DNA of 64,000 nt, from positions 138,032,365 to 138,096,364 of the forward strand of contig JAOWCC010001634.1 of NCBI GenBank assembly GCA_030867875.1, given 5' to 3'. The position numbers and the translations under genes are program-made. The notes beneath the pieces were generated by a model. That model did not search any database and had not been told where the DNA came from. It saw only the letters and a program-made list of their open reading frames with translations. Positions 37,920 through 63,177 of this stretch are shown piece after piece. The first letter of the stretch is position 1. The number at the start of each line of letters is the position of its first letter. Origin of the DNA: Actinernus sp. WN-2022. Its lineage: Eukaryota; Cnidaria; Anthozoa; Actiniaria; Actinernidae.

Positions 37920-37960
37920 ATTATCGCCAAACGATCAACGAGTAGTCCGATAAACTTTAA

Positions 37961-38371
37961 TGTGGCTCCTGCACATTAGGAATAATAACTCGGCTAACGC
38001 TCCAATAACTCAACTTTATTATTAGACTTAATACGATCCACTTTGACTCCAGTTTGGTTTACAACTCCAAGTAAACTTTTATAATTCTCTCGTCGAACAG
38101 ACAACAAACACGCACACAGTTCCAGTGTCCTTCCAGGATCTCTTGACGCGGTTTATCTAGGTAAAATACACTGAAATTAAACTACAAAGTTCTATACGAC
38201 ATTATTTTAAGAAGTTATGAAACTTACCGGACTGTTCGGTAACCTAAGGAAGCATTTATAGCGCTGACAAAACGCTATCCAAAATCCAACATGGACGACG
38301 ACAAACATGTGCTCAACTACTGATCACGTGACGTGCGAAACTCCCCTAGGGGGTAGTACACGGTAGCCACA
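37961..38371 (-). repeat. BEL-Pao 5' LTR
   Basis: 411 bp. On the minus strand it is followed by about 40 bp and then the polyprotein start at 37919. Confidence 0.95.
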
Positions 38372-38410
38372 CTACATGTATCTTTTTGTTTCTTTGAATA
38401 TAATCTCCAG

Positions 38411-38731
38411 GAGCTGCATTTGGAGCAGCTAGCACCAGCAGGCTTACAACCTCAACTAATGTAGGATTAACATTAGGACCTACATGTACAGCTGTTCCAA
38501 CAGCAGCTGCTAGTGCATTTAAGTTTGGAACCCCTGGTGCTACCACTACAGGGCTCCAGATGGGAATGACATGTACAGCTCCTGCTGCAACAACTGCAGC
38601 TAAAACAAGTTTTGCATTTGGTCCAACTGTCTCCACACCAGCAGCATCTGGGTTTGCATTTGGTGGGCAAACTGCTTCAATAGGGACAGGTGCCACCCCT
38701 GGGGGTATTACTCTTGGTGGACCCTCTGCAG
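38411..38731 (+). CDS. FxFG nucleoporin-like exon, copy 4 (321 bp)
   Basis: Three codons longer than copy 2: a net 3-bp gain near the start (GCAGCTAGCACC) and a 6-bp gain after MGM (ACATGTACAGCT). Both keep the frame. It begins only 35 bp after the second target duplication of the BEL-Pao element, so its branch point and T-rich tract are just outside the insertion. Confidence 0.75.
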
Positions 38732-39224
38732 GTATAGAACACAAACCACCTATGTACAATCGTGTACATTGTGCATGTTTGTAGACATATTCCCTTAGTA
38801 CATGTACATTCAGTCAGGATATATACTACATGTAGATTTAGGGTAAGGGATGACATGAAATAGCCTTTGTAATATTCCTGACCAAAGAAATATGAATCAA
38901 CATGCATTAGCTTATTGGCTTCTTCTAAAACAGTTATTATATAAATTTGCACTAAGTTTCTAAGATGGGATAGATGAAGGGCTAACACTCTAAACGTCAG
39001 CTGCTATTTACTTAATCCTACAGTGGTTAACATACGTGTACATGTACCTTAATATTGATCCACTTTTAGTTGATTAATTATAAGTACTAGTGTTTATCTT
39101 GTCCCCTTTGATGCAAACTAACACTGATTTTTAATTGAACTAGTACATGTATTACATCCATTCTATATCCAATAGTTGACTAGATAATTTATCTTGGAAA
39201 AGGAACCGAGATATTTTACAATTT

Positions 39225-39513
39225 TATTGAAAACAAATTTAAAAATATATTTTATTTGTAATATAGTATTACAGCTGGTGGGGGCCTGCTTTTACTCCCC
39301 ACTACATTAATTGTTTTGGACACACTACACTCGACTCACAGTTGATTTTACAAAGGGAGGAAAAACCAGAGAACCTGGAGAAAAACCCTCAAATACAGAT
39401 AAGGAATCAACAACAAGCCTAACTCACATACATGTATGGTGCCCAAGCTGGAAATCGAACCCGGGACCGCAGCGGTGAGAGGCGAGTGTTTTACCACTGC
39501 ACCAACCGTGCAC
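39225..39513 (-). repeat. tRNA-derived SINE in intron 4-5
   Basis: Same head and body as at 28300-28590. Confidence 0.7.
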
Positions 39514-39869
39514 ATCTGGAATTCCAAAATGCTGCCCATGGAAGGGATACAGATATTTTCTGTATTAACTACCCAATGTCAGAAGCTAGGGTCAGGAAAC
39601 TATTAGGTCAAATTTTCACTATTTCAAACAAGTGTACATTTGTATAATGTAGAACATACAATGTAGGGTATTCTTTGTGAACCAACACTTTCTTCACAGA
39701 TCTGATGTACAAATTGTACTCCTGAAGTATGATTTGGACATGTATACATTGTACATGTAAGTATAAAAGTTGTAAGTCATAGTTAAGGGTTACATTATTT
39801 TGTACAATGTCTAGTACATGTACAATGTTACTACATGTATCTTTTTGTTTCTTTGAATATAATCTCCAG

Positions 39870-40190
39870 GAGCTGCATTTGGAGCAGCTAGCACCAGCAG
39901 GCTTACAACCTCAACTAATGTAGGATTAACATTAGGACCTACATGTACAGCTGTTCCAACAGCAGCTGCTAGTGCATTTAAGTTTGGAACCCCTGGTGCT
40001 ACCACTACAGGGCTCCAGATGGGAATGACAGCTCCTGCTGCAACAACTGCAGCTAAAACAAGTTTTGCATTTATAATTGGTCCAACTGTCTCCACACCAG
40101 CAGCATCTGGGTTTGCATTTGGTGGGCAAACTGCTTCAATAGGGACAGGTGCCACCCCTGGGGGTATTACTCTTGGTGGACCCTCTGCAG
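39870..40190 (+). CDS. FxFG nucleoporin-like exon, copy 5 (321 bp)
   Basis: Frame-keeping changes: the same 3-bp gain as copy 4 near the start, and a 6-bp gain (ATAATT) that converts SFAFGP to FAFIIGP and so removes one FG motif. Splice borders unchanged. Confidence 0.75.
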
Positions 40191-40684
40191 GTATAGAACA
40201 CAAACCACCTATGTACATGTACATTGTGCATGTTTGTAGACATATTCCCTTAGTACATGTGCATTGAGTCAGGATATATACTACATGTAGATTTAGGGTA
40301 AGGGATGACATGAAATAGCCTTTGAAATATTCCTGACCAAAGAAATATGAATCAACATGCATTAGCTTATTGGCTTCTTCTAAAACAGTTATTATATAAA
40401 TTTGCACTCAGTTTCTAAGATGGGAAAGACGAAGGGCTAACACTCTAAACGTCAGCTGCTATTTACTTAATCCTACAGTGGTTAACATACGTGTACATGT
40501 ACAATGTACATGTACCTTAATATTGATCCACTTTTAGTTGATTAATTATAAGTGCCAGTGTTTATCTTGTCCCCTTTGATTCAAACTAACACGGATTTTT
40601 ACATGAACTAGTACATGTATTACATCCATTCTATATCCAATAGTTGACTAGATAATTTATCTTGGAAAAGGAACCGAAATATTT

Positions 40685-40973
40685 TACAAAATAAATTTAA
40701 AAATATATTTTATTTGTAATATATAGTATTACAGCTGGTGGGGGCCTGCTTTTACTCCCCACTACATTAATTGTTTTGGACACACTACACTCGACTCACA
40801 GTTGATTTTACAAAGGGAGGAAAAACCAGAGAACCTGGAGAAAAACCCTCAAATACAGATAAGGAATCAACAACAAGCCTAACTCACATACATGTATGGT
40901 GCCCAAGCTGGAAATCGAACCCGGGACCGCAGCGGTGAGAGGCGAGTGTTTTACCACTGCACCAACCGTGCAC
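40685..40973 (-). repeat. tRNA-derived SINE in intron 5-6
   Basis: Same head and body as at 28300-28590. Confidence 0.7.
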
Positions 40974-41335
40974 ATCTGGAATTCCAAAATGCTGCCCATG
41001 GAAGGGATACAGATATTTTCTGTATTAACTACCCAATGTCAGAAGCTAGGGTCAGGAAACTATTAGGTCAAATTTTCACTATTTCAAACAAGTGTACATT
41101 TGTATAATGTAGAACATACAATGTAGGGTATTCTTTGTGAACCAACACTTTCTTCACAGATCTGATGTACAAATTGTACTCCTGAAGTATGATTTGGACA
41201 TGTATACATTGTACATGTAAGTATAAAAGTTGTAAGTCATAGTTAAGGGTTACATTATTTTGTACAATGTCTAGTACATGTACAATTGCAATGTTACTAC
41301 ATGTATCTTTTTGTTTCTTTGAATATAATCTCCAG

Positions 41336-41665
41336 GAGCTGCATTTGGAGCAGCTAGCACCAGCAGGCTTACAACCTCAACTAATGTAGGATTAACATTA
41401 GGACCTACATGTACAGCTGTTCCAACAGCAGCTGCTAGTGCATTTAAGTTTGGAACCCCTGGTGCTACCACTACAGGGCTCCAGATGGGAATGACAGCTC
41501 CTGCTGCAACAACTGCAGCTAAAACAAGTTTTGCATTTATAATTGGTCCAACTGTCTCCACACCAGCAGCATCTGGGTTTGCATTTGGTGGGCAAACTGC
41601 TTCAATAGGGACAGGTGCCACCCCTGGGGGTATTACTCTTGGTGGACCCAGACGGCTTTCTGCAG
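41336..41665 (+). CDS. FxFG nucleoporin-like exon, copy 6 (330 bp)
   Basis: Carries the gains of copy 5 plus a further 9 bp near the end (GGACCCAGACGGCTTTCT), still in frame. The next intron contains the 12.8-kb palindromic element, 283 bp downstream of the donor site. Confidence 0.75.
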
Positions 41666-41947
41666 GTATAGAACACAAACCACCTATGTACATGTACATT
41701 GTGCATGTTTGTAGACATATTCCCTTAGTACATGTGCATTGAGTCAGGATATATACTACATGTAGATTTAGGGTAAGGGATGACATGAAATAGCCTTTGA
41801 AATATTCCTGACCAAAGAAATATGAATCAACATGCATTAGCTTATTGGCTTCTTCTAAAACAGTTATTATATAAATTTGCACTCAGTTTCTAAGATGGGA
41901 AAGACGAAGGGCTAACACTCTAAACGTCAGCTGCTATTTACTTAATC

Positions 41948-42131
41948 AGTAGTATATGAATTGTTGCTTCTGGCCCGATTACAACAAAATACAACGAACA
42001 CACTGTTGCATTTGTTGCATTTTATAACATCTCACCCTTCGGGTTCGTTATCATAAAATGCAACAAATGCAACAGTGTGTTCGTTGTATTTTGTTGTAAT
42101 CGGGCCAGAGAGCAACAATTTATCTTCTACT
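41948..42131. repeat. Terminal hairpin, left end of copy 1
   Basis: Near-perfect inverted repeat: 41959-42025 pairs with 42053-42120 over about 67 bp, interrupted only by small bulges. Weaker pairing extends outward to AGTAG at 41948 and CTACT at 42127-42131. The 27-base loop contains ACCCTTCGGGT, a second small palindrome, so the single strand could fold into a T or cruciform tip. Confidence 0.9.
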
Positions 42132-42293
42132 ATAGTTCATTTATTGTATTTATAATTATATATTAAATAATCGGTTTCTACCGCTTTTTTCCGGATTAAA
42201 GCAGTTTTGTTGTACTATTTTTTTAATCATATTTTACATTTCAACGTCCTATTAGAGAAGTGATTACTATGTAGTATATCGATCTCTTCCACT

Positions 42294-42596
42294 ATGGATA
42301 GCATACCGCGCCTTCCCATAGAAATCTTAGTTATAGGACCCTCATTTTTTTTTCGGCTACCCCTCGTTTCGGCAACCATTTTGACGAACACTTGCCACCC
42401 CCCAACAAGAAAGATGCAATTTGTTGCCAAGAAACTTCGTGTTGAACACTGGTGGCCCAAGGGATATAGGCAACCATTCCGATTGCCCCAAACCCTACAG
42501 CAACATGGCAGCTATCCACGCAACATTCGAAAGCATGGGACTTCGTGTGGAGAAGAACACAGCCCTCCATCTCCTACAAGAGAATACCTACGATAG
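42294..42596 (+). CDS. Upstream ORF overlapping the start of the large gene, doubtful
   Basis: A 100-codon frame beginning MDSIPRLPIEIL, overlapping the first 92 bases of the 841-codon gene in another frame. It is kept in both left arms and in the right arm of copy 1, which says little because the arms are almost identical throughout. The LPIEIL opening resembles the start of an F-box but the rest does not follow. It may be a regulatory upstream ORF or chance. Confidence 0.2.
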   Translation: MDSIPRLPIEILVIGPSFFFRLPLVSATILTNTCHPPTRKMQFVAKKLRVEHWWPKGYRQPFRLPQTLQQHGSYPRNIRKHGTSCGEEHSPPSPTREYLR

Positions 42597-45030
42597 CAAC
42601 CTCGTTTCGGACATTGCCGATGTGGACTATCTGTCTGGAAACGAAGGCCAAACCAACCTGGTTCCACTCGAAGGTCTCCCAACGTTCGTGGACGACGTAT
42701 ACGTGTTCGGCTATCTATCTCGCGAGGAAGTAGTCTACAAAGGCCGAAAGGTTCTACTATCCACAGGAGAAGGTGGGAAAGCGAAACAGGTGGTTGCAGC
42801 AATCCAACTCGCAATCCAAAACTCTACCCTATCGAGCAAATCCCTACACGCAGCCATTGTCCACACAGTTCGATCTACCACCACCGGTATTGTCTCTACA
42901 ACGATAGCCCGAATAGGAAACGACACAGAAAGCCGAGCACTCCAAGCATGGCGCAAGCTATATCCAGACAAAGAACCCGAGACCTACTTCGTCGCCAAGG
43001 TAGATGTATCGGAAATTCCAATGGAGCAACTACAAGATGCACTTGCAGGATTCGAAAGGAACCTCGAAATCGGCGGATACGGAATCTATTGCATAGACTA
43101 TACCCAAGACTTCTCGGGAGTACTAGATCGCCCAACCCTTGTGGACCATCTGGTGGAAAACGAAGGCATGCGAGAACAAGGAGACCTGGGCAGTGCAATG
43201 CGAGCCGACAGAGCAACCATCTTGGACAACACAGGCTCTGTTGGAAAACACGTTTGCACGTATCTTCGCACCACACCAACAGGCAAGACGATTCGTGCAA
43301 AGATATACAACAAGATAGTTTCCAATTTCGAAGCAGGAGAGATTCGAGAACCTTTTGGTGGCCACCTTGCAGACTATGTCGACTGCCCCAACGAACATCT
43401 TCGCAAAACATTCCAGCATCCGGATGTCCAGGCTAGAGGATGCACTCGAGTCGAAGTTTCGCTATATGCATGCCGCCTTGGCGAAGAGTTGTCTACCAAT
43501 ATAGGCAAAGAGCTGGTAGAGGGGGTTCTACAGACCTTGGGCCAAGATCTCTTCGTAGTACAACCACCATCCAGGCAATGGAAGAATCTCGCCCAAGAGC
43601 TGGACCGTTGTTGTATTCTTGCAGATCGGCCGTCCCACACAATATATGCAGTGTGGTATGCCCATTCCAAGACGAAGAGGGTAGCAGGAGTGCGGGTAGC
43701 TCCTACAGCAGCCATATGCGACAACGACCAGTACTGGGAGAAAGCAGTACAATGGACGATTTCCGAGTTTGGTTTCCGATGCTGCCCAATATTTCGTGTG
43801 GATATTCTAGAGGCCACAGACGATGGCATCGACATAGGTCCACTTCGCTGCTACACAAAAGCAGCCAACACTTCTACTATTCTTGCTGCCAGCAAACACC
43901 CAGTGCAGAAACACACCAACTGCCTTCCACCAAGCCAACTGCTTCCAGAAACCACCCAAGTAGCATGGATATGGCGAGAAAAACACACAAACCATGCTAT
44001 AGGGAAAGAAAAGATTCGATGGCCACTAGAAGAAATACCCACAGATAGAGAAATATCGATGCTATCTACACACCATAGGATAGCTAGATTGTTGGCTATT
44101 GCAGATGCGAAGAAGGCCGAGTTGTGGCGTCGTAGAGTTGTCGAAGAACAAGTTGCACTTCGAGCGAAAAGGATAGAAGAGATCGCGAACATAGAACGCT
44201 TCCTATCTGGAAAGAGAGCTTTCGAAGCAAAAGCAGCCAAGGTCGTAGGCAGGATAGAGATAGCCGCGAAAAACCCAACCTACAAGCTAGACTACTTTCT
44301 TCCCCACACCAACTTTCGTGTCCTAGGATTCCGAAGATGCAAAAGCCAGTATGGCAATACAGCCAGAATCTTTGTAGATGTCGAGGTGCCAGGGTGCGAC
44401 GTACGAGAGGATATGGCCATATGGAGCACAAAAGGACTGTCGACTATACTCGACAAACTCGAGGGCAACTTCTCGCAGGCCAACCAACTATACTACCTAG
44501 TCCAACTATCCCCAAACAAACCAACCTTTCGTTTCCAAACCCAACCGGCGAAAAAGTTCTATGCCAACAACAAACAAATCGAATGGATTCCCATATCTAT
44601 GCAAGAGACCCCAAACCCAGCAGACAAGCCTTTGGTAGAAGCCCTATTGCAAAAAGCCAACGAGGCATACAACGAGCTTCGTAGACACCCACGCAACCTT
44701 GCTATTGTACCAGCACCCAAAAGAACAGAGTGCAACAAAGCAGTCGATCTAGCTACAGGCGAGTACATTTGCTTCCTATATTCGCAAGCAACCTTCCGAG
44801 GTAGTCCAAGAACTATTCTACATCTTCTTCCTGCAGATAGCGAAGGCGAGCCTACCACCGACGAAGATATGCCTACATATGGTTTCTTCCTAGAGCGAGA
44901 ACTAGAAGCAATTGGCACAACAAACTTGGAACGGGCTCTAGCTCCACTTCGCTGCTATCTTGGAGACATTCGAACCACACCAAACAAGAAGAAGGACAGA
45001 CTTGCCACCATATCTATCTGCCAAGACTAG
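42505..45030 (+). CDS. Orphan 841-aa protein of the palindromic element, possible replication initiator
   Basis: I chose the ATG at 42505 (AACATGG, a good initiation context); the frame is open further upstream without an ATG. Not recognised as any transposase, and no HUH or DDE pattern was found. Residues about 190-320 resemble the core of Rep_trans / phage gpII rolling-circle initiators: YGIYCIDYTQDF (two Asp, 198 and 202), then TGKTIRAKIYNK (R264, Y268, K270), then GCTRVEVSLYA (R315, E317). Those families use acidic residues rather than HUH to hold metal. Residues about 540-615 are a charged helical stretch (RRRVVEEQVALRAKRIEEI). Codon use, rich in TTCGAA and CGA, differs from the host exons. 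The same frame is open in copy 2 (3 amino-acid differences seen). It ends 17 bp inside the convergent small gene. Confidence 0.7.
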   Translation: MAAIHATFESMGLRVEKNTALHLLQENTYDSNLVSDIADVDYLSGNEGQTNLVPLEGLPTFVDDVYVFGYLSREEVVYKGRKVLLSTGEGGKAKQVVAAIQLAIQNSTLSSKSLHAAIVHTVRSTTTGIVSTTIARIGNDTESRALQAWRKLYPDKEPETYFVAKVDVSEIPMEQLQDALAGFERNLEIGGYGIYCIDYTQDFSGVLDRPTLVDHLVENEGMREQGDLGSAMRADRATILDNTGSVGKHVCTYLRTTPTGKTIRAKIYNKIVSNFEAGEIREPFGGHLADYVDCPNEHLRKTFQHPDVQARGCTRVEVSLYACRLGEELSTNIGKELVEGVLQTLGQDLFVVQPPSRQWKNLAQELDRCCILADRPSHTIYAVWYAHSKTKRVAGVRVAPTAAICDNDQYWEKAVQWTISEFGFRCCPIFRVDILEATDDGIDIGPLRCYTKAANTSTILAASKHPVQKHTNCLPPSQLLPETTQVAWIWREKHTNHAIGKEKIRWPLEEIPTDREISMLSTHHRIARLLAIADAKKAELWRRRVVEEQVALRAKRIEEIANIERFLSGKRAFEAKAAKVVGRIEIAAKNPTYKLDYFLPHTNFRVLGFRRCKSQYGNTARIFVDVEVPGCDVREDMAIWSTKGLSTILDKLEGNFSQANQLYYLVQLSPNKPTFRFQTQPAKKFYANNKQIEWIPISMQETPNPADKPLVEALLQKANEAYNELRRHPRNLAIVPAPKRTECNKAVDLATGEYICFLYSQATFRGSPRTILHLLPADSEGEPTTDEDMPTYGFFLERELEAIGTTNLERALAPLRCYLGDIRTTPNKKKDRLATISICQD

Positions 45031-45364
45031 CCAGACGTTCGAATGCCGGACTATCTGGCCATGGCAAAACAAGACCATCCTCGTTGCACAACGAAGGAGT
45101 CTCGAAGTCTACATCTCGCACAAGATACAATGGACCGAGAGCAAGAGAATCGCATAGCGATTTCCCCACACTTTCTATTCCAACATCTTCCACACCTACA
45201 TAGCACAAAATACCTTCTCCCTTTTTCGACGATGCAAGATATGCCTCCAAAGACATCCGGGTCGCACCCGAAGACACTGCCGTAGCCATGGCTTCCTTCC
45301 AGGCCCGTATTGGATAGAACATTGGCCACTTTCCCCAAGAACCGTACATTCGTAGAATATCCAT
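45014..45364 (-). CDS. Convergent 116-aa protein of the palindromic element
   Basis: Minus-strand frame from a Met at 45364, tail-to-tail with the 841-codon gene with a 17-bp overlap. Starts MDILRMYGSWGKWPMFYPIR. Balanced composition with several Trp, Cys and acidic residues (CYVGVEDVGIESVGKSLCD), unlike random sequence. It is open in all four arms seen in the window with at most one residue change (Glu here, Gln in the other three, near the C-terminus). No signal peptide, membrane segment or known domain. TATA-like words (TATATGTATATG) lie about 60-70 bp upstream at 45,400-45,421. Function unknown. Confidence 0.5.
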   Translation of the reverse strand: MDILRMYGSWGKWPMFYPIRAWKEAMATAVSSGATRMSLEAYLASSKKGEGILCYVGVEDVGIESVGKSLCDSLALGPLYLVRDVDFETPSLCNEDGLVLPWPDSPAFERLASLGR

Positions 45365-45431
45365 ATTGCCATATACCTACATATAGCCATTCTCCAAAAG
45401 GGAATACATATACATATACGCGCTGCGAGAT

Positions 45432-46870
45432 CTACGATCCTATTGCAAAGCTACGATTCTATTGCAAAGCTACGATTCTATTGCAAAGCTACGATTCTAT
45501 TGCAAAGCTACGATTCTACTGCAAAGCTACGATTCTACTGCAAAGCTACGATTCTACTGCAAAGCTACGATTCTATTGCAAAGCTACGATTCTATTGCAA
45601 AGCTACGATTCTATTGCAAAGCTACGATTCTACTGCAAAGCTACGATTCTATTGCAAAGCTACGATTCTATTGCAAAGCTACGATTCTATTGCAAAGCTA
45701 CGATTCTATTGCAAAGCTACGATTCTATTGCAAAGCTACGATTCTATTGCAAAGCTACGATTCTATTGCAAATCTACGATTCTATTGCATAGCTACGATT
45801 CTATTGCAAAGCTACGATTCTACTGCACAGCTACGATTCTATTGCAAAGCTACGATTCTATTGCAAAGCTATGATTCTATTGCAAAGCTACGATTCTATT
45901 GCAAAGCTACGATTCTATTGCACAGCTACGATTCTATTGCACAGCTACGATTCTATTGCAAAGCTACGATTCTATTGCAAAGCTACGATTCTAATGCAAA
46001 GCTACGATTCTATTGCAAAGCTACGATTCTATTGCAAAGCTACGATTCTACTGCAAAGCTACGATTCCACTGCAAAGCTACGATTCCACTGCAAAGCAAC
46101 GATTCTACTGCAAAGCTACGATTCTACTGCAAAGCTACGATTCTATTGCAAAGCTACGATTCTATTGCAAAGCTACGATTCTATTGCACAGCTACGATTC
46201 TATTGCAAAGCTACGATTCTATTGCAAAGCTACGATTCTATTGCAAAGCTACGATTCTATTGCACAGCTACGATTCTATTGCAAAGCTACGATTCTATTG
46301 CAAAGCTACGATTCTATTGCAAAGCTACGATTCTATTGCAAAGCTACGATTCTATTGCAAAGCTACGATTCTATTGCAAAGCTACGATTCTACTGCAAAG
46401 CTACGATTCTACTGCAAAGCTACGATTCTACTGCAAAGCTACGATTCTACTGCAAAGCTACGATTCTACTGCAAAGCTACGATTCTACTGCAAAGCTACG
46501 ATTCTATTGCACAGCTACGATTCTATTGCAAAGCTACGATTCTATTGCACAGCTACGATTCTATTGCAAAGCTACGATTCTATTGCAAAGCTACGATTCT
46601 ATTGCAAATCTACGATTCTATTGCAAAGCTACGATTCTAGTGCAAAGCTACGATTCTATTGCAAAGCTACGATTCTATTGCAAAGCTACGATTCTATTGC
46701 AAAGCTACGATTCTATTGCAAAGCTACGATTCTATTGCAAAGCTACGATTCTATTGCAAAGCTACGATTCTATTGCAAAGCTACGATTCTATTGCAAAGC
46801 TACGATTCTATTGCAAAGCTACGATTCTATTGCAAAGCTACGATTCTATTGCAAAGCTACAATTCTATCG
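45432..46870 (+). repeat. 19-bp minisatellite, about 75 copies
   Basis: Unit TTGCAAAGCTACGATTCTA with variants (TACTGC, TGCACAGC, AAATC). Since 19 is not a multiple of three and the unit has no plus-strand stop, all three plus frames stay open for long distances. These frames are shadows. Confidence 0.95.
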
Positions 46871-48300
46871 CAAAAATAGAAAACAGTAGCATCGCAAAAA
46901 AAGAAAACAGTAGCACCGCAAAAAAAAATAGAAAACAGTAGCATCGCAAAAATAGAAAACAGTAGCATCGCAAAAAATAGAAAACAGTAGCATCGCAAAA
47001 AATAGAAAGCAGTAGCATCGCAAAAGTAGAAAACAAGTAGCATCGCAAAAAATAGAAAACGGTAGCATCGCCAAAAAAATAATAGAAAACAGTAGCATCG
47101 CAAAAATAGAAAACAAGTAGCATCGCAAAAAAAATAGAAAACGGTAGCATCGCAAAAGTAGAAAACAAGTAGCATCGCAAAAAATAGAAAACGGTAGCAT
47201 CGCAAAAAATAGAAAACGGTAGCATCGCAAAAAATAGAAAGCAGTAGCATCGCAAAAATAGAAAACAGTAGCATCGCCAAAAAAAAATAGAAAACAGTAG
47301 CATCGCAAAAATAGAAAACAGTAGCATCGCAAAAAATAGAAAACAGTAGCATCGCAAAAATAGAAAACAGTAGCATCGCAAAAAAAAGAAAACAGTAGCA
47401 TCGCAAAAAATAGAAAGCAGTAGCATCGTAAAAGTAGAAAACAAGTAGCATCGCAAAAAATAGAAAACGGTAGCATCGCAAAAGTAGAAAACAAGTAGCA
47501 TCGCAAAAAATAGAAAACGGTAGCATCGCAAAAAATAGAAAACGGTAGCATCGCAAAAAATAGAAAGCAGTAGCATCGCAAAAAAAAAAAATAGAAAACA
47601 GTAGCATCGCAAAAAAAAAAAATAGAAAACAGTAGCATCGCAAAAATAGAAAACAGTAGCATCGCAAAAAATAGAAAGCAGTAGCATCGCAAAAATAGAA
47701 AACGGTAGCATCGCAAAAAAAAAAATTTGAAAACAGTAGCATCGCAAAAAATAGAAAACAGTAGCATCGCAAAAAAATAGAAAACAGTAGCATCGCAAAA
47801 ATAGAAAACAGTAGCATTGCAAAAAAATAGAAAGCAGTAGCATCGCAAAAATAGAAAACAGTAGCATCGCAAAAGTAGAAAACAAGTAGCATCGCAAAAA
47901 TAGAAAACAAGTAGCATCGCAAAAATAGAAAACAGTAGCATCGCAAAAGTAGAAAACAAGTAGCATCGCAAAAATAGAAAACAAGTAGCATCGCAAAAGT
48001 AGAAAACAAGTAGCATCGCAAAAAATAGAAAACAAGTAGCATCGCAAAAATAGAAAACAAGTAGCATCGCAAAAGTAGAAAACAAGTAGCATCGCAAAAA
48101 TAGAAAACAAGTAGCATCGCAAAAGTAGAAAACAAGTAGCATCGCAAAAAATAGAAAACAAGTAGCATCGCAAAAATAGAAAACAAGTAGCATCGCAAAA
48201 GTAGAAAACAAGTAGCATCGCAAAAGTAGAAAACAAGTAGCATCGCAAAAATAGAAAACAAGTAGCATCGCAAAAATAGAAAACAAATGGCACGAAAATG
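46871..48300 (+). repeat. Roughly 24-bp minisatellite with variable A-run
   Basis: Core GAAAACAGTAGCATCGC joined by A-runs of 4-12. A second type has AAGTAGAAAACAAGTAGC. It is open on the minus strand in all frames, giving long Phe/Cys/Leu-rich shadow ORFs up to 583 codons. Confidence 0.95.
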
Positions 48301-48619
48301 GATAGAAAACAAATAGCACCGCAAAAATAGAAAACAAATGGCACGAAAATGGATAGAAAACAAATACCACCGCAAATAGATAGATCGCGGGCGCAAATAG
48401 ATAGAAAACAATCGACACCACAAAAAAAAAAAAATAGAAAAACGAATGGTACCAAGGAAAATCGGGAGAAACCACAGGATTTCCAAGGTCGCAGGGCACC
48501 TACATATGTACAAGTTCCACCACAGGACACCAGCAAGGTCGCATCTATGCGTACCAAGCACAACAACACGTTTCCAACGAGGTTCCAACAAGGTCACAAC
48601 AAGGTCGCATCTACGCCCT
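48301..48619. other. Inner arm segment
   Basis: Degenerate continuation of the 24-bp repeat (GCACGAAAATGGATAG words), then about 190 bp of unique sequence with AACAAGGTCGCATCTA repeated twice. No gene supported. Confidence 0.5.
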
Positions 48620-48770
48620 GCTAGACATTCGCTAGATATTTGCTAGATGTTTGCTAGACATTCGCTAGACATTTGCTAGACATTCGCTAGATGTTTGCTA
48701 GACATTTTTCTAGACATTCGCTAGACATTCGCTAGATGTTTGCTAGACATTTGCTAGACATTTGCTAGAC
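48620..48770. repeat. Central spacer of 11-bp repeats
   Basis: About 13 copies of GCTAGACATTC and variants (GCTAGATGTTT). It is the only part of copy 1 that is not mirrored, so it separates the two arms of the palindrome. Confidence 0.9.
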
Positions 48771-49100
48771 GGGGCGTAGATGCGACCTTGTTGTGACCTT
48801 GTTGGAACCTCGTTGGAAACTTGTTGTTGTGCTTGGTACGCATAGATGCGACCTTGCTGGTGTCCTGTGGTGGAACTTGTACATATGTAGGTGCCCTGCG
48901 ACCTTGGAAATCCTGTGGTTTCTCCCGATTTTCCTTGGTACCATTCGTTTTTCTATCTTTTTTTTTTTTGTGGTGTCGATTGTTTTCTATCTATTTGCGC
49001 CCGCGATCTATCTATTTGCGGTGGTATTTGTTTTCTATCCATTTTCGTGCCATTTGTTTTCTATTTTTGCGGTGCTATTTGTTTTCTATCCATTTTCGTG
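48771..49100. other. Inner segment of the right arm
   Basis: Inverse of 48,301-48,619, same content. No gene supported. Confidence 0.5.
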
Positions 49101-50053
49101 CCATTTGTTTTCTATTTTTGCGATGCTACTTGTTTTCTATTTTTGCGATGCTACTTGTTTTCTACTTTTGCGATGCTACTTGTTTTCTACTTTTGAGATG
49201 CTACTGCTTTCTATTTTTTGCGATGCTACTTGTTTTCTATTTTTTGCGATGCTACTTGTTTTCTACTTTTGCGATGCTACTTGTTTTCTATTTTTGCGAT
49301 GCTACTTGTTTTCTACTTTTGCGATGCTACTGTTTTCTATTTTTGCGATGCTACTTGTTTTCTATTTTTGCGATGCTACTTGTTTTCTACTTTTGCGATG
49401 CTACTGTTTTCTATTTTTGCGATGCTACTGCTTTCTATTTTTTTGCGATGCTACTGTTTTCTATTTTTGCGATGCTACCGTTTTCTATTTTTTGCGATGC
49501 TACCGTTTTCTAATTTTTGCGATGCTACTTGTTTTCTACTTTTGCGATGCTACTGTTTTCTATTTTTTTTTGGCGATGCTACTGTTTTCTATTTTTGCGA
49601 TGCTACTGTTTTCTATTTTTGCGATGCTACTGTTTTCTATTTTTTTTTGGCGATGCTACTGTTTTCTATTTTTGCGATGCTACTGCTTTCTATTTTTGCG
49701 ATGCTACCGTTTTCTATTTTTGCGATGCTACTGCTTTCTATTTTTGCGATGCTACCGTTTTCTATTTTTTGCGATGCTACCGTTTTCTAATTTTTGCGAT
49801 GCTACTTGTTTTCTACTTTTGCGATGCTACCGTTTTCTATTTTTTTTGCGATGCTACTTGTTTTCTATTTTTGCGATGCTACTGTTTTCTATTATTTTTT
49901 TGGCGATGCTACCGTTTTCTATTTTTTGCGATGCTACCGTTTTCTAATTTTTGCGATGCTACTTGTTTTCTATTTTTGCGATGCTACTTGTTTTCTACTT
50001 TTGCGATGCTACTGCTTTCTATTTTTTGCGATGCTACTGTTTTCTATTTTTGC
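49101..50053 (-). repeat. Roughly 24-bp minisatellite, right arm
   Basis: Inverse of the array at 46,871-48,300 but about 480 bp shorter, so the two arms have changed copy number independently. Confidence 0.95.
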
Positions 50054-51530
50054 GATAGAATTGTAGCTTTGCAATAGAATCGTAGCTTTGCAATAGAATC
50101 GTAGCTTTGCAATAGAATCGTAGCTTTGCAATAGAATCGTAGCTTTGCAATAGAATCGTAGCTTTGCAATAGAATCGTAGCTTTGCAATAGAATCGTAGC
50201 TTTGCAATAGAATCGTAGCTTTGCAATAGAATCGTAGCTTTGCAATAGAATCGTAGCTTTGCACTAGAATCGTAGCTTTGCAATAGAATCGTAGCTTTGC
50301 ACTAGAATCGTAGCTTTGCAATAGAATCGTAGATTTGCAATAGAATCGTAGCTTTGCAATAGAATCGTAGCTTTGCAATAGAATCGTAGCTGTGCAATAG
50401 AATCGTAGCTTTGCAATAGAATCGTAGCTTTGCAGTAGAATCGTAGCTTTGCAGTAGAATCGTAGCTTTGCAGTAGAATCGTAGCTTTGCAGTAGAATCG
50501 TAGCTTTGCAGTAGAATCGTAGCTTTGCAGTAGAATCGTAGCTTTGCACTAGAATCGTAGCTTTGCACTAGAATCGTAGCTTTGCAATAGAATCGTAGCT
50601 TTGCAATAGAATCGTAGCTTTGCAATAGAATCGTAGCTTTGCAATAGAATCGTAGCTTTGCAATAGAATCGTAGCTTTGCAATAGAATCGTAGCTGTGCA
50701 ATAGAATCGTAGATTTGCAATAGAATCGTAGCTTTGCAATAGAATCGTAGCTTTGCAATAGAATCGTAGCTGTGCAATAGAATCGTAGCTTTGCAATAGA
50801 ATCGTAGCTTTGCAATAGAATCGTAGCTTTGCAGTAGAATCGTAGCTTTGCAGTAGAATCGTTGCTTTGCAGTGGAATCGTAGCTTTGCAGTAGAATCGT
50901 AGCTTTGCAGTAGAATCGTAGCTTTGCAATAGAATCGTAGCTTTGCAATAGAATCGTAGCTTTGCATTAGAATCGTAGCTTTGCAATAGAATCGTAGCTT
51001 TGCAATAGAATCGTAGCTGTGCAATAGAATCGTAGCTGTGCAATAGAATCGTAGCTTTGCAATAGAATCGTAGCTTTGCAATAGAATCGTAGCTTTGCAA
51101 TAGAATCGTAGCTTTGCAATAGAATCGTAGCTGTGCAGTAGAATCGTAGCTTTGCAGTAGAATCGTAGCTGTGCAATAGAATCGTAGATTTGCAATAGAA
51201 TCGTAGCTTTGCAATAGAATCGTAGCTTTGCAATAGAATCGTAGCTTTGCAATAGAATCGTAGCTTTGCAATAGAATCGTAGCTTTGCAATAGAATCGTA
51301 GCTTTGCAATAGAATCGTAGCTTTGCAATAGAATCGTAGCTTTGCAATAGAATCGTAGCTTTGCAATAGAATCGTAGCTTTGCAATAGAATCGTAGCTTT
51401 GCAATAGAATCGTAGCTTTGCAGTAGAATCGTAGCTTTGCAGTAGAATCGTAGCTTTGCAGTAGAATCGTAGCTTTGCAATAGAATCGTAGCTTTGCAAT
51501 AGAATCGTAGCTTTGCAATAGGATCGTAGA
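50054..51530 (-). repeat. 19-bp minisatellite, right arm
   Basis: Inverse of the array at 45,432-46,870, about 77 copies, with a partly different order of variants. Confidence 0.95.
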
Positions 51531-51596
51531 TCTCGCAGCGCGTATATGTATATGTATTCCCTTTTGGAGAATGGCTATATGTAGGTATATGGCAAT

Positions 51597-51947
51597 ATGG
51601 ATATTCTACGAATGTACGGTTCTTGGGGAAAGTGGCCAATGTTCTATCCAATACGGGCCTGGAAGGAAGCCATGGCTACGGCAGTGTCTTCGGGTGCGAC
51701 CCGGATGTCTTTGGAGGCATATCTTGCATCGTCGAAAAAGGGAGAAGGTATTTTGTGCTATGTAGGTGTGGAAGATGTTGGAATAGAAAGTGTGGGGAAA
51801 TCGCTATGCGATTCTCTTGCTCTCGGTCCATTGTATCTTGTGCGAGATGTAGACTTCGAGACTCCTTCGTTGTGCAACGAGGATGGTCTTGTTTTGCCAT
51901 GGCCAGATAGTCCGGCATTCCAACGTCTGGCTAGTCTTGGCAGATAG
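51597..51947 (+). CDS. 116-aa protein, right-arm copy
   Basis: Same protein as at 45014-45364, open throughout, with Gln at the one variable position. It remains intact although the neighbouring large gene in this arm is broken. Confidence 0.5.
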   Translation: MDILRMYGSWGKWPMFYPIRAWKEAMATAVSSGATRMSLEAYLASSKKGEGILCYVGVEDVGIESVGKSLCDSLALGPLYLVRDVDFETPSLCNEDGLVLPWPDSPAFQRLASLGR

Positions 51948-54217
51948 ATATGGTGGCAAGTCTGTCCTTCTTCTTGTTTGGTGTGGTTCGAATGTCTCCA
52001 AGATAGCAGCGAAGTGGAGCTAGAGCCCGTTCCAAGTTTGTTGTGCCAATTGCTTCTAGTTCTCGCTCTAGGAAGAAACCATATGTAGGCATCTCTTCGT
52101 CGGTGGTAGGCTCGCCATCGCTATCTGCAGGAAGAAGATGTAGAATAGTTCTTGGACTACCTCGGAAGGTTGCTTGCGAATACAGGAAGCAAATGTACTC
52201 GCCTGTAGCTAGATCGACTGCTTTGTTGCACTCTGTTCTTTTGGGTGCTTGTACAATAGCAAGGTTGCGTGGGTGTCTACGAAGCTCGTTGTATGCCTCG
52301 TTGGCTTTTTGCAATAGGGCTTCTACCAAAGGCTTGTCTGCTGGGTTTGGGGTCTCTTGCATAGATATGGGAATCCATTCGATTTGTTTGTTGTTGGCAT
52401 TTTCGCCGGTTGGGTTTGGAAACGAAAGGTTGGTTTGTTTGGGGATAGTTGGACTAGGTAGTATAGTTGGTTGGCCTGCGAGAAGTTGCCCTCGAGTTTG
52501 TCGAGTATAGTCGACAGTCCTTTTGTGCTCCATATGGCCATATCCTCTCGTACGTCGCACCCTGGCACCTCGACATCTACAAAGATTCTGGCTGTATTGC
52601 CATACTGGCTTTTGCATCTTCGGAATCCTAGGACACGAAAGTTGGTGTGGGGAAGAAAGTAGTCTAGCTTGTAGGTTGGGTTTTTCGCGGCTATCTCTAT
52701 CCTGCCTACGACCTTGGCTGCTTTTGCTTCGAAAGCTCTCTTTCCAGATAGGAAGCGTTCTATGTTCGCGATCTCTTCTATCCTTTTCGCTCGAAGTGCA
52801 ACTTGTTCTTCGACAACTCTACGACGCCACAACTCGGCCTTCTTCGCATCTGCAATAGCCAACAATCTAGCTATCCTATGGTGTGTAGATAGCATCGATA
52901 TTTCTCTATCTGTGGGTATTTCTTCTAGTGGCCATCGAATCTTTTCTTTCCCTATAGCATGGTTTGTGTGTTTTTCTCGCCATATCCATGCTACTTGGGT
53001 GGTTTCTGGAAGCAGTTGGCTTGGTGGAAGGCAGTTGGTGTGTTTCTGCACTGGGTGTTTGCTGGCAGCAAGAATAGTAGAAGTGTTGGCTGCTTTTGTG
53101 TAGCAGCGAAGTGGACCTATGTCGATGCCATCGTCTGTGGCCTCTAGAATATCCACACGAAATATTGGGCAGCATCGGAAACCAAACTCGGAAATCGTCC
53201 ATTGTACTGCTTTCTCCCAGTACTGGTAGACAACTCTTCGCCAAGGCGGCATGCATATAGCGAAACTTCGACTCGAGTGCATCCTCTAGCCTGGACATCC
53301 GGATGCTGGAATGTTTTGCGAAGATGTTCGTTGGGGCAGTCGACATAGTCTGCAAGGTGGCCACCAAAAGGTTCTCGAATCTCTCCTGCTTCGAAATTGG
53401 AATCTATCTTGTTGTATATCTTTGCACGAATCGTCTTGCCTGTTGGTGTGGTGCGAAGATACGTGCAAACGTGTTTTCCAACAGAGCCTGTGTTGTCCAA
53501 GATGGTTGCTCTGTCGGCTCGCATTGCACTGCCCAGGTCTCCTTGTTCTCGCATGCCTTCGTTTTCCACCAGATGGTCCACAAGGGTTGGGCGATCTAGT
53601 ACTCCCGAGAAGTCTTGGGTATAGTCTATGCAATAGATTCCGTATCCGCCGATTTCGAGGTTCCTTTCGAATCCTGCAAGTGCATCTTGTAGTTGCTCCA
53701 TTGGAATTTCCGATACATCTACCTTGGCGACGAAGTAGGTCTCGGGTTCTTTGTCTGGATATAGCTTGCGCCATGCTTGGAGTGCTCGGCTTTCTGTGTC
53801 GTTTTCTATTCGGGCTATCGTTGTAGAGACAATACCGGTGGTGGTAGATCGAACTGTGTGGACAATGGCTGCGTGTAGGGATTTGCTCGATAGGGTAGAG
53901 TTTTGGATTGCGAGTTGGATTGCTGCAACCACCTGTTTCGCTTTCCCACCTTCTCCTGTGGATAGTAGAACCTTTCGGCCTTTGTAGACTACTTCCTCGC
54001 GAGATAGATAGCCGAACACGTATACGTCGTCCACGAACGTTGGGAGACCTTCGAGTGGAACCAGGTTGGTTTGGCCTTCGTTTCCAGACAGATAGTCCAC
54101 ATCGGCAATGTCCGAAACGAGGTTGCTATCGTAGGTATTCTCTTGTAGGAGATGGAGGGCTGTGTTCTTCTCCACACGAAGTCCCATGCTTTCGAATGTT
54201 GCGTGGATAGCTGCCAT
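51931..54217 (-). pseudogene. Right-arm copy of the 841-codon gene, broken
   Basis: Starts at the same ATG (54217-54215). Relative to the left arm it lacks 232 bp (left-arm bases 43499-43730) between two ACCA words, a microhomology-type deletion that shifts the frame after LSTS. It also lacks 7 bp (AAGTTCT type) near 52,398, a second frameshift. It keeps the putative initiator-like core (residues 190-320) but loses the region after it. One private change is Val to Asp after YNKI. Confidence 0.9.
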
Positions 54218-54590
54218 GTTGCTGTAGGGTTTGGGGCAATCGGAATGGTTGCCTATATCCCTTGGGCCACCAGTGTTCAACACGAAGTTTCTTGGCAACA
54301 AATTGCATCTTTCTTGTTGGGGGGTGGCAAGTGTTCGTCAAAATGGTTGCCGAAACGAGGGGTAGCCGAAAAAAAAATGAGGGTCCTATAACTAAGATTT
54401 CTATGGGAAGGCGCGGTATGCTATCCATAGTGGAAGAGATCGATATACTACATAGTAATCACTTCTCTAATAGGACGTTGAAATGTAAAATATGATTAAA
54501 AAAATTGTACAACAAAACTGCTTTAATCCGGAAAAAAGCGGTAGAAACCGATTATTTAATATATAATTATAAATACAATAAATGAACTAT

Positions 54591-54774
54591 AGTAGAAGAT
54601 AAATTGTTGCTCTCTGGCCCGATTACAACAAAATACAACGAACACACTGTTGCATTTGTTGCATTTTATGATAACGAACCCGAAGGGTGAGATGTTATAA
54701 AATGCAACAAATGCAACAGTGTGTTCGTTGTATTTTGTTGTAATCGGGCCAGAAGCAACAATTCATATACTACT
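54591..54774. repeat. Terminal hairpin, right end of copy 1
   Basis: Exact inverse of the left hairpin as far as I can see, ending CATATACTACT before the duplicated ACTTAATC. Confidence 0.9.
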
Positions 54775-54994
54775 ACTTAATCCTACAGTGGTTAACATAC
54801 GTGTACATGTACAATGTACATGTACCTTAATATTGATCTACTTTTAGTTGATTAATTATAAGTACTAGTGTTTATCTTGTCCCCTTTGATGCAAACTAAC
54901 ACTGATTTTTAATTGAACTAGTACATGTATTACATCCATTCTATATCCAATAGTTGACTAGATAATTTATCTTGGAATAGGAACTGAGATATTT

Positions 54995-55287
54995 TACAAA
55001 ACAAATTAAAAAATATATTTTATTTGTTATATAGTATTACAGCTGGTGGGGGCCTGATTTTACTCCCCACTACATTAATTGTTTTGGACACACTACACTC
55101 GACTCACAGTTGATTTTACAAAGGTAGAAAAACCAGAGAACCTGGTGAAAAACCCTCAAATGCAGATTAGGAATCAGCAACAAGCCTTAACTCACATACA
55201 TGTATGGTGCCCAAGCTGGAAATCGAACCCGCGACTAGTACTGCAGCGGTGAGAGGCAAGTGTTTTACCACTGCACCAACCGTGCAC
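54995..55287 (-). repeat. tRNA-derived SINE in intron 6-7
   Basis: Shares the CGACTAGTACTGCAG variant of the head with the copy at 26840-27133. Confidence 0.7.
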
Positions 55288-55647
55288 ATCTGGAATTCCA
55301 AAATGCTGCCCATGGAAGGGATACAGATATTTTCTGTATTAACTATATACCCAATGTCAGAAGCTAGGGTCAGGAAACTATTAGGTCAAATTTTCACTAT
55401 TTCAAACAAGTGTACATTTGTACAATGTAGAACATACAATGTAGGGTATTCTTTGTGAACCAACACTTTCTTCACAGATTTGAAGTACAAATTGTACTCC
55501 TGAAGTATGATTTGGACATGTATACATTGTACATGTAAGTATAAAAGTTGTAAGTCATAGTTAAGGGTTACATTATTTTGTACAATGTCTAGTACATGTA
55601 CAATGTTACTACATGTATCTTTTTGTTTCTTTAAACATAATCTCCAG

Positions 55648-55959
55648 GAGCTGCATTTGGAGCAGCACCAGCAGGCTCTACAACCTCAACTAATGTAGGA
55701 TTAACATTAGGACCTACATGTACAGCTGTTCCAACAGCAGCTGCTAGTGCATTTAAGTTTGGAACCCCTGGTGCTACCACTACAGGGCTCCAGATGGGAA
55801 TGACCGCTCCTGCTGCAACAACTGCAGCTAAAACAAGTTTTGCATTTGGTCCAACTGTCTCCACACCAGCAGCATCTGGGTTTGCATTTGGTGGGCAAAC
55901 TGCTTCAATAGGGACAGGTGCCACCCCTGGGGGTATTACTCTTGGTGGACCCTCTGCAG
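55648..55959 (+). CDS. FxFG nucleoporin-like exon, copy 7 (312 bp)
   Basis: Of the shorter type, like copy 2, with no gains. It is the first exon after the palindromic element. The sequence after its donor (CTATGTACAATCATGTAC) resembles that after copy 4, suggesting that they are duplicates. Confidence 0.75.
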
Positions 55960-56275
55960 GTATAGAACACAAACCACCTATGTACAATCATGTACATTGT
56001 GCATGTTTGTAGACATATTCCCTTAGTACATGTACATTCAGGCAGGATATATACTACATGTAGATTTAGGGTAAGGGATGACCTGAAATAGCCTTTGTAA
56101 TATTCCTGACCAAAGAAATATGAATCAACATGCATTAGCTTATTGGCTTCTTCTAAAACAGTTATTATATAAATTTGCACTAAGTTTCTAAGATGGGATA
56201 GATGAAGGGCTAACACTCTAAACGTCAGCTGCTATTTACTTAATCCTACAGTGGTTAACATACGTGTTAACTACA

Positions 56276-56464
56276 CTACACTCGACTCACAGTTGATTTT
56301 ACAAAGGGAGGAAAAACCAGAGAACCTGGAGAAAAACCCTCAAATACAGATAAGGAATCAACAACAAGCCTAACTCACATACATGTATGGTGCCCAAGCT
56401 GGAAATCGAACCCGGGACCGCAGCGGTGAGAGGCGAGTGTTTTACCACTGCACCAACCGTGCAC
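56276..56464 (-). repeat. tRNA-derived SINE, tail deleted, intron 7-8
   Basis: The head is intact. The 3' part is lost in the same deletion that shortens this intron. Confidence 0.7.
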
Positions 56465-56820
56465 ATCTGGAATTCCAAAATGCTGCCCATGGAAGGGATA
56501 CAGATATTTTCTGTATTAACTACCCAATGTCAGAAGCTAGGGTCAGGAAACTATTAGGTCAAATTTTCACTATTTCAAACAAGTGTACATTTGTATAATG
56601 TAGAACATACAATGTAGGGTATTCTTTGTGAACCAACACTTTCTTCACAGATCTGATGTACAAATTGTACTCCTGAAGTATGATTTGGACATGTATACAT
56701 TGTACATGTAAGTATAAAAGTTGTAAGTCATAGTTAAGGGTTACATTATTTTGTACAATGTCTAGTACATGTACAATGTTTCTACATGTATCTTTTTGTT
56801 TCTTTGAATATAATCTCCAG

Positions 56821-57141
56821 GAGCTGCATTTGGAGCAGCTAGCACCAGCAGGCTTACAACCTCAACTAATGTAGGATTAACATTAGGACCTACATGTACA
56901 GCTGTTCCAACAGCAGCTGCTAGTGCATTTAAGTTTGGAACCCCTGGTGCTACCACTACAGGGCTCCAGATGGGAATGACAGCTCCTGCTGCAACAACTG
57001 CAGCTAAAACAAGTTTTGCATTTATAATTGGTCCAACTGTCTCCACACCAGCAGCATCTGGGTTTGCATTTGGTGGGCAAACTGCTTCAATAGGGACAGG
57101 TGCCACCCCTGGGGGTATTACTCTTGGTGGACCCTCTGCAG
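56821..57141 (+). CDS. FxFG nucleoporin-like exon, copy 8 (321 bp)
   Basis: Has the 3-bp and 6-bp gains of copy 5 and is almost identical to it. The intron before it is short (861 bp) because about 290 bp, including the tail of the SINE, is deleted near 56,270. Confidence 0.75.
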
Positions 57142-57634
57142 GTATAGAACACAAACCACCTATGTAAATGTACATTGTGCATGTTTGTAGACATATTCCC
57201 TTAGTACATGTGCATTGAGTCAGGATATATACTACATGTAGATTTAGGGTAAGGGATGACGTGAAATAGCCTTTGAAATATTCCTGACCAAAGAAATATG
57301 AATCAACATGCTTAGCTTATTGGCTTCTTCTAAAACAGTTATTATATAAATTTGCACTCAGTTTCTAAGATGGGAAAGACGAAGGGCTAACACTCTAAAC
57401 GTCAGCTGCTATTTACTTAATCCTACAGTGGTTAACATACGTGTACATGTACAATGTACATGTACCTTAATATTGATCCACTTTTAGTTGATTAATTATA
57501 AGTGCCAGTGTTTATCTTGTCCCCTTTGATGCAAACTAACACTGATTTTTACATGAACTAGTACATGTATTACATCCATTCTATATCCAATAGTTGACTA
57601 GATAATTTATCTTGGAAAAGGAACCGAGATATTT

Positions 57635-57920
57635 TACAAAATATATTTTAAAATATATTTTATTTGTAATATAGTATTACAGCTGGTGGGGGCCTGCTTT
57701 TACTCCCCACTACATTAATTGTTTTGGACACACTACACTCGACTCACAGTTGATTTTACAAAGGAGAAAAAACCAGAGAACCTGGAGAAAAACCCTCAAA
57801 TACAGATAAGGAATCAACAACAAGCCTAACTCACATACATGTATGGTGCCCAAGCTGGAAATCGAACCCGGGACCGCAGCGGTGAGAGGCGAGTGTTTTA
57901 CCACTGCACCAACCGTGCAC
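57635..57920 (-). repeat. tRNA-derived SINE in intron 8-9
   Basis: Same head and body as at 28300-28590, with small changes in the tail. Confidence 0.7.
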
Positions 57921-58260
57921 ATCTGGAATTCCAAAATGCTGCCCATGGAAGGGATACAGATATTTTCTGTATTAACTACCCAATGTCAGAAGCTAGGGTC
58001 AGGAAACTATTAGGTCAAATTTTCACTATTTCAAACAAGTGTACATTTGTATAATGTAGAACATACAATGTAGGGTATTCTTTGTGAACCAACACTTTCT
58101 TCACAGATCTGATGTACAAATTGTACTCCTGAAGTATGATTTGGACATGTATACATTGTACATGTAAGGTATTAAAGTTGTTACATTATTTTGTACAATG
58201 TCTAGTACATGTACAATGTTACTACATGTATCTTTTTGTTTCTTTAAACATAATCTCCAG

Positions 58261-58578
58261 GAGCTGCATTTGGAGCAGCACCAGCAGGCTCTACAACCTC
58301 AACTAATGTAGGATTAACATTAGGACCTACATGTACAGCTGTTCCAACAGCAGCTGCTAGTGCATTTAAGTTTGGAACCCCTGGTGCTACCACTAGAGGG
58401 CTCCAGATGGGAATGACAGCTCCTGCTGCAACAACTGCAGCTAAAACAAGTTTTGCATTTATAATTGGTCCAACTGTCTCCACACCAGCAGCATCTGGGT
58501 TTGCATTTGGTGGGCAAACTGCTTCAATAGGGACAGGTGCCACCCCTGGGGGTATTACTCTTGGTGGACCCTCTGCAG
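58261..58578 (+). CDS. FxFG nucleoporin-like exon, copy 9 (318 bp)
   Basis: Has the 6-bp ATAATT gain but not the 3-bp gain, giving 106 codons. One Thr is replaced by Arg (ACTAGAGGG). The second palindromic element begins 283 bp after its donor, the same distance as after copy 6. Confidence 0.75.
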
Positions 58579-58860
58579 GTATAGAACACAAACCACCTAT
58601 GTACATGTACATTGTGCATGTTTGTAGACATATTCCCTTAGTACATGTGCATTGAGTCAGGATATATACTACATGTAGATTTAGGGTAAGGGATGACATG
58701 AAATAGCCTTTGAAATATTCCTGACCAAAGAAATATGAATCAACATGCATTAGCTTATTGGCTTCTTCTAAAACAGTTATTATATAAATTTGCACTCAGT
58801 TTCTAAGATGGGAAAGACGAAGGGCTAACACTCTAAACGTCAGCTGCTATTTACTTAATC

Positions 58861-62277: not shown

Positions 62278-62340
62278 ATTGCCATATACCTACATATAGC
62301 CATTCTCCAAAAGGGAATACATATACATATACGCGCTGCG

Positions 62341-63112: not shown

Positions 63113-63177
63113 CTCGCAGCGCGTATATGTATATGTATTCCCTTTTGGAGAATGGCTATATGTAGGTATATGGCAAT

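Follow-up and report, generated by a model that had tools for sequence, protein, structure and literature searches.

A gene-bearing 12.8-kb palindrome with Polinton-like ends in Actinernus, a probable Polinton satellite

The DNA analysed here is a 64,000-nucleotide stretch of the Actinernus sp. WN-2022 genome (GenBank assembly GCA_030867875.1, contig JAOWCC010001634.1, positions 138,032,365 to 138,096,364 of the forward strand), which we refer to as the window. Positions 41948-54774 hold a 12.8-kb palindromic element with genes in both arms and with ends that match Polinton/Maverick-like elements of the same genome, and we consider it to be probably a palindromic satellite of Polintons. An earlier account made from the letters alone (the sequence-only reading) had described a near-complete palindrome inserted with a target duplication, in which coding sequence is doubled because each arm carries two genes and two minisatellites. 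This description holds: the coordinates are exact, six empty sites attest the insertion, and each arm has the 841-aa open reading frame (ORF) 1, the convergent 116-aa ORF2, and minisatellites with 19-bp and 25-bp units.

The element consists of two “caps” and a module between them. The left cap (41948-42331, plus strand) is a 384-bp Polinton terminus from the F-box-gene end, with an AGTAGT tip and a hairpin of ~190 nt, and it stops just inside the F-box gene, in its 5' end. The right cap (54391-54774, minus strand) is the same 384-bp terminus inverted. The tip hairpin has a folding energy of -83.6 kcal/mol, compared with -16.4 for shuffled sequences (z -24). The palindromic module (42332-54390) has the edge TATAGGACCC on both sides, the same edge as in all arms read in 30 palindromes. 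Its left arm contains ORF1 (42505-45030, plus strand), ORF2 (45014-45364, minus strand), ~76 copies of the 19-bp minisatellite (45432-46874, plus strand) and ~58 copies of the 25-bp minisatellite (46867-48336, plus strand). The centre is a 151-bp spacer made of an 11-bp tandem array (48619-48770), after which the right arm presents its 25-bp minisatellite (49055-50056, minus strand; ~40 copies and shorter than the left one), 19-bp minisatellite (50049-51529, minus strand; ~78 copies), an open copy of ORF2 (51597-51947, plus strand) and a disrupted copy of ORF1 (51931-54217, minus strand).

Reversed and aligned to the left arm, with the minisatellites left outside, the right arm shows 99.8% identity in an initial stretch of 1551 bp and 99.3% in a further 1714 bp. 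Because the right arm has deletions of 232 bp and 7 bp and 8 other base differences relative to the left, ORF1 is open in the left arm only. The sequence ACTTAATC flanks the element at 41940-41947 and 54775-54782, although the 5-bp TAATC is an alternative reading on the left, and an extra ACT of the tip followed by TAATC on the right. Six paralogous tandem units of the window contain the empty site TTTACTTAATCCTAC (a seventh has diverged there), thereby confirming ACTTAATC as a target duplication.

In the next tandem unit, a second copy of the palindrome occupies the equivalent site and runs past the window end (58861-64000). Its left arm is 99.9% identical to that of the first copy over 3485 bp, the 200 bp directly outside it are identical, and the whole 2.6-kb left flank is 98% identical. 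It probably arose by duplication or homogenisation of the tandem array, but it may instead be a separate second insertion. Pattern positions place ~1.6 kb between the ends of its ORF1 copies and roughly 9.6-9.9 kb of additional sequence in its right-arm ORF1 region.

Both genes are under purifying selection. In the assembly containing the window (1.39 Gb), 54 of 758 candidate places for ORF1 were scored, at 88-100% identity, and 43 of these have no stop. The ratio of nonsynonymous to synonymous substitution rates (dN/dS) between the window ORF1 and three diverged relatives is 0.188, 0.189 and 0.155, the last of these over 697 codons. ORF2 is open in 9/9 sequences, and its dN/dS is 0.21-0.30 when the left arm of the second window copy, one residue different from the first, is compared with three diverged copies.

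Neither protein could be assigned to a described family, in line with the sequence-only reading. Pfam, the only collection searched for ORF2, gave no match to either, including none to a superfamily transposase (hAT, P type). For ORF1, there was also no match in NCBIfam, PDB, plasmids, phages, IMG/VR or GTDB contigs (eukaryote protein collections were not searched), and comparison with PHROGs returned noise only (E 0.15-0.22). The structure models are of low confidence, with a predicted local distance difference test score of 30.8 for ORF1 (AlphaFold) and 46 for ORF2. The window element has no PolB, rve integrase, packaging ATPase or capsid gene of its own, its only gene-like frames being ORF1 and ORF2. 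The inner palindromic module is the novel part of the element.

The same plan recurs across the genome. An exact 17-mer from the module edge, TATAGGACMCTCATTTT, occurs 70 times (reversed control: 1), and when pairs are counted by hand from order, strand, and distance, 60 of these places form 30 outward-facing plus/minus pairs 5.6-32 kb apart, with 10 left over. Within this distance, the sole minus/plus neighbours are the adjacent palindromes of the window, W1 and W2, and one additional minus arm lies 1.7 kb past a pair. A 30-mer from ORF1 (up to 3 mismatches) has 122 occurrences and a second one (up to 2 mismatches) has 129, each with a control of 0; among the 100 places listed for each, 82 form 41 plus/minus pairs with the first and 74 form 37 pairs with the second, which leaves 26 unpaired. 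Some leftovers of one probe are paired by another: the first ORF1 30-mer pairs three left by the edge 17-mer (C685:54471114, C685:120589530 and C685:45619132), and the second pairs three of the 18 left by the first (C270, C235:18376355 and C685:99274784). No monomer was identified, the unpaired places among the matches listed not having been read out. Searching the genome with arm sequence, as the sequence-only reading had proposed, yields other palindromic dimers at dozens of loci, and the paired arms support the inverted-dimer organisation.

The caps lead to a different group of elements. The first 253 bp of the element have 40 scored full-length places among 1073 candidates, and pairing by hand gives 14 inverted pairs 12.8-20.9 kb apart (28 places) and 12 single places. 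Two pairs are the window palindromes, and ten of the other 12 were fetched. All ten are non-palindromic elements of 14.3-16.9 kb with terminal repeats of 245-333 bp, which led to rejection of an initial reading in which every copy would be a palindromic dimer of a single element. They carry AGTAGT/ACTACT tips and the same hairpin, and each has a 5-bp target duplication (10/10). The window arms match the F-box end of nine of the ten at 94.3-99.0% over 384 bp, a match that reaches codon 13 of the F-box gene, and the tenth lacks part of that end; beyond the terminal region, only short terminal-repeat-like matches join the window element to this family.

The gene content of the full elements is taken from one annotated example. 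It has an rve integrase (E 2.9e-9) and a poxvirus-A32-type ATPase (1.9e-11), both above cut-off, a TFIIB-like gene below cut-off (0.0064) and, at one end, an ankyrin gene above cut-off with an F-box match just below it. Its 1202-aa protein resembles a Polinton PolB in its motifs; Pfam gave just a sub-threshold endonuclease VII match for this protein and PDB gave no match. In vertebrate Mavericks, the ends carry an (AGT)2/(ACT)2 motif and the target duplications are 6 bp (PMC8097293). We label the 14-17 kb family Polinton/Maverick-like on these sequence features, i.e., the end motif is shared and the duplication is 5 bp rather than 6 bp. The free-standing new superfamily of the sequence-only reading is thus not supported, since both termini and hairpin belong to this resident family. 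The hairpin sits at both ends of full Polintons rather than at those of a ~6.5-kb monomer.

Some further observations concern the full Polintons themselves. The TFIIB-like and F-box/ankyrin proteins (L010:4150-5196 and L010:6003-6845) are unusual Polinton cargo. When the ten elements (L009-L028) are compared with one reference element, a polymerase-integrase block of ~5 kb is common to them, mostly at 98%, and the last ~1 kb is 94-97% alike in most. In the middle block, some elements are similar (90-98%) and others can be aligned in patches only (75-82%), a sequence pattern that suggests exchange of gene blocks.

To describe the junctions between module and caps, we examined the sequence just outside each arm of 30 palindromes and of one extra arm, giving 61 arms; ten palindromes had been picked by ORF1 pairs before the edge was known, eighteen by the edge 17-mer, and two are those of the window. 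In the first eleven, the edge lies at the same base in 22/22 arms. The base preceding the edge is T in 59 of the 61 arms; the remaining two belong to a single element. These arms represent 30 distinct junctions, and the reference arm of every one has T, compared with a T content of 31% in the flanks. Intact Polinton sequence also has the T at 9/9 distinct junctions for which an alignment reaches the junction, one of these alignments being weak (80%, 64 bp) and several being to a related family (73-87%), while a tenth stopped 2-3 bases short. One diverged palindrome (L049, 1800-2030) has the Polinton hairpin joined directly to the start of ORF1, with the first ~175 bp of the module missing.

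Outside the module, 28 of the 30 palindromes either carry the tip motif of a Polinton or match pieces of Polintons, and at least six Polinton tip types are joined to the module edge. The breakpoint is the same on both sides in 18 of the 30. Nine elements have flanks which reach past the terminal repeat and are therefore informative about which Polinton end is present: both flanks are the same end in 9/9, and none is mixed. This is the F-box end in six (W1, W2, P635, P1706b, Q691 and Q734c) and the polymerase end in three (P235a, Q235b and Q1706).

Both tips were read in 20 palindromes, and the target duplication is exactly 5 bp in 17 of them, two of which share CCAAT. The others are one with 5 bp and one mismatch, and the two window copies (one site) with 8 bp. 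The 8-bp duplication given in the sequence-only reading is thus present at the window site as ACTTAATC but is not typical, and 8 bp as a family trait was rejected, given the 5 bp of the full Polintons and of most palindromes. The 8 bp in the window may consist of a 5-bp duplication, TAATC, and a third ACT belonging to the right tip, which would be an error of jumping-back replication at the AGT repeats; a role of the end repeats in such replication is described in PMC8097293. The weakness of this reading is that the target must coincidentally carry ACT there. A composite with 118-bp caps occurs at four sites with four different duplications, and therefore the composite itself moves.

The two arms of an element tend to resemble each other more than they resemble other elements. 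In 11 palindromes, the mean difference between arms is 1.6 of ~874 bp, versus 9.5 between elements, and left and right arms are mutually closest in eight. One further element is tied, and the two that depart from the pattern are both asymmetric. In six of eight more diverged elements, the own arm is again the closest, with within-element versus nearest-other differences of 0 of 690 bp versus 4.9%, 0.4 versus 4.9%, 0.15 versus 8.7%, 1.6 versus 8.7%, 2.8 versus 14.2%, and 0.9 versus 3.5%. In the tree, left and right arms group as sisters for 14 of 19 elements. Because the arms are mostly mutually closest, also in old lineages, the palindrome appears to be old as a plan and to be renewed or homogenised in each lineage. 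This renewal probably takes place around transposition rather than by constant chromosomal conversion, since the arms of the window copy carry unequal changes.

We conclude, with a probability of about 0.78, that the element is a palindromic satellite of Polintons whose machinery integrates it in trans. The composite anatomy, copy number, cap identity, T-junction rule, same-end caps, 5-bp duplications, selection, and concerted arms are direct observations, and the mechanism proposed to connect them is as follows. A two-gene module, each arm of which runs from the TATAGG edge through ORF1, ORF2 and repeats to the centre, is present as an inverted dimer and would have been joined at its edge, after a T, to Polinton terminal fragments, leaving the same Polinton terminus at both ends and the Polinton genes lost. 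The resulting mini-genome would retain the cis-acting parts (AGTAGT tip and hairpin terminal repeat), and the polymerase and integrase of full Polintons would copy and integrate it with a 5-bp duplication. Action of the Polinton enzymes in trans is suggested by two features of the satellite: terminal sequence is all that it retains of Polintons, and it shares their 5-bp duplication.

The symmetry of the caps could follow from replication. Protein-primed strand-displacement synthesis starting at one Polinton end may snap back, or recombine with a sister molecule, at the palindrome; returning to the starting end would produce symmetric caps and lose the helper genes, and crossing between molecules with different breakpoints would produce the asymmetric class. 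ORF1, in which no supporting domain was recognised, would make the T-specific joins and is the best candidate for a joining enzyme. More tentatively, and at somewhat less than even odds, these elements might be selfish DNA of a new class, namely hyperparasites of virus-like transposons that are obligately palindromic. In that event, ORF1 would join the TATAGG edge to Ts near replicating Polinton ends, and the palindrome would fold back replication to give gutless mirror-image genomes with caps from several Polinton families, which would replicate, perhaps be packaged, and integrate at the helper's expense.

Several points weigh against the satellite reading. The two sides differ in breakpoint in 12 of the 30 palindromes, for which simple snap-back is insufficient because different breakpoints need a second event, and two of the 30 have neither a Polinton tip nor a match in the 627-700 bp read. 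A full Polinton carrying the module was not seen, and nine of the 30 palindromes are informative as to the end. Arms beyond the first ten pairs were chosen by the edge 17-mer, so arms that have lost the edge are under-sampled; three further copies of greater divergence include two without the edge and one in which a diverged edge follows a T. The window copies have 8 bp instead of 5, and mobilisation in trans is deduced from termini and duplications. Finally, two old pairs, whose arms were paired by position alone, deviate from the arm pattern (C1184: 11.5 versus 10.8%; C398b: 28 versus 10.8%), and gene conversion in the chromosome could be another source of concerted arms.

Other explanations account for some of these results. 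If the module were an ordinary cut-and-paste transposon whose terminal inverted repeats are very long, inserted by chance into Polintons and with the remnants as deletion derivatives, this would fit the sharp module edge, the T (possibly TA) target at 30 distinct junctions, and selection on both genes. However, a simple insertion should leave two different sides of the site, whereas the same Polinton end faces inward in 9/9 informative elements; equal breakpoints on both sides (18/30) and a location within Polinton-like sequence (28/30) also speak against such a transposon, which we consider unlikely. Less likely again is rolling-hairpin, parvovirus-like replication by a Rep-like ORF1, with head-to-head dimers formed via the terminal hairpins. 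Terminal hairpins and inverted dimers are indeed present, and two ORF1 motifs resemble those of Rep proteins. These motifs gained no support from any search, profiles of Rep families did not match ORF1, and the low-confidence structure model adds no support either, so that a Rep-like ORF1 is unsupported. Moreover, the hairpin belongs to the Polinton family, whose ten full elements read are not dimers, and the palindromic dimers are joined at the centre rather than at the hairpin. The hairpin loop has a single orientation in 22/22 aligned tips, and flip-flop hairpins were rejected on that basis.

Some long-read and amplification methods are well known for creating palindromes artificially, and a palindromic read or false duplication has to be considered for this reason. 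Yet two deletions and 8 substitutions distinguish the arms, and clean empty sites exist for the window copy. The same plan is found at dozens of loci, and among those with both tips read the target duplications vary; the palindrome is therefore not due to chance and an assembly artefact is very unlikely, the least probable of the three alternatives by a wide margin. We regard the palindrome as real.

Among the closest known systems are Polintons/Mavericks, with which the satellite shares the (AGT)2...(ACT)2 end motif, terminal repeats, a short target duplication, and, in this genome, caps that are 94-99% identical. Unlike them, the satellite has no polymerase, integrase, ATPase or capsid genes, its interior is an unrelated palindromic module, it has the same end twice (9/9 informative) rather than two different ends, and its duplication is 5 bp (8 bp in the window) rather than 6 bp. 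Foldback and giant-palindrome elements also have arms that make up nearly the whole element, but the satellite has conserved protein genes doubled in its arms and Polinton termini. Transpovirons and virophages, the satellites of giant viruses, are likewise dependent, gene-bearing DNA exploiting viral machinery, whereas the satellite is palindromic, covalently joined to the termini of its presumed helper, and present as chromosomal copies in a genome whose transposons are of animal type.

Adenovirus mini-genomes offer another parallel. In vectors of the Lieber group, recombination between inverted repeats in the linear, protein-primed genome reportedly gave rise to short, symmetric genomes that lack viral genes and have the same end at both sides. 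Those are laboratory products; the satellite, by contrast, occurs in nature as an old lineage that bears genes and recurs with several types of Polinton terminus. Inter-genome crossover yields shorter, favoured genomes, according to PMC13027316. Replitrons, as PMC10741241 describes them, are 0.9-4 kb long, have no terminal inverted repeats, make 2-8 bp duplications, and occur in green algae and some land plants. A preference for a single target nucleotide would fit a nicking-joining enzyme of the kind in Replitrons and Helitrons (HUH), but the satellite differs in size and terminal repeats, and no sequence relation was detected. Among the literature entries listed, titles and abstract openings contain no description of palindromic Polinton satellites.

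Around the two palindromes, the window contains a tandem array (25642-30430, 38371-41947 and 54774-58860) with units of ~1.45 kb that are ~93-98% alike and have open frames on both strands. A minus-strand open frame of 2319 aa lies at 30975-37934, and it resembles a BEL/Pao-type retroelement polyprotein. At 10244-11065, an open frame has, by eye, about twenty tandem units of REPP/PREPP type.

Polintons are regarded as ancestors of many DNA viruses. If the satellite reading is right, Polintons would have satellites of their own in this genome, in the form of natural palindromic mini-genomes, and these copies would be a genomic record of Polinton replication products. One could then test whether Polintons still multiply as linear DNA by protein-primed replication and whether they integrate in trans. 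Such palindromes are usually thought to be quickly lost, but here a 12-kb palindrome with genes in its arms would have been maintained long-term as a plan, apparently through renewal.

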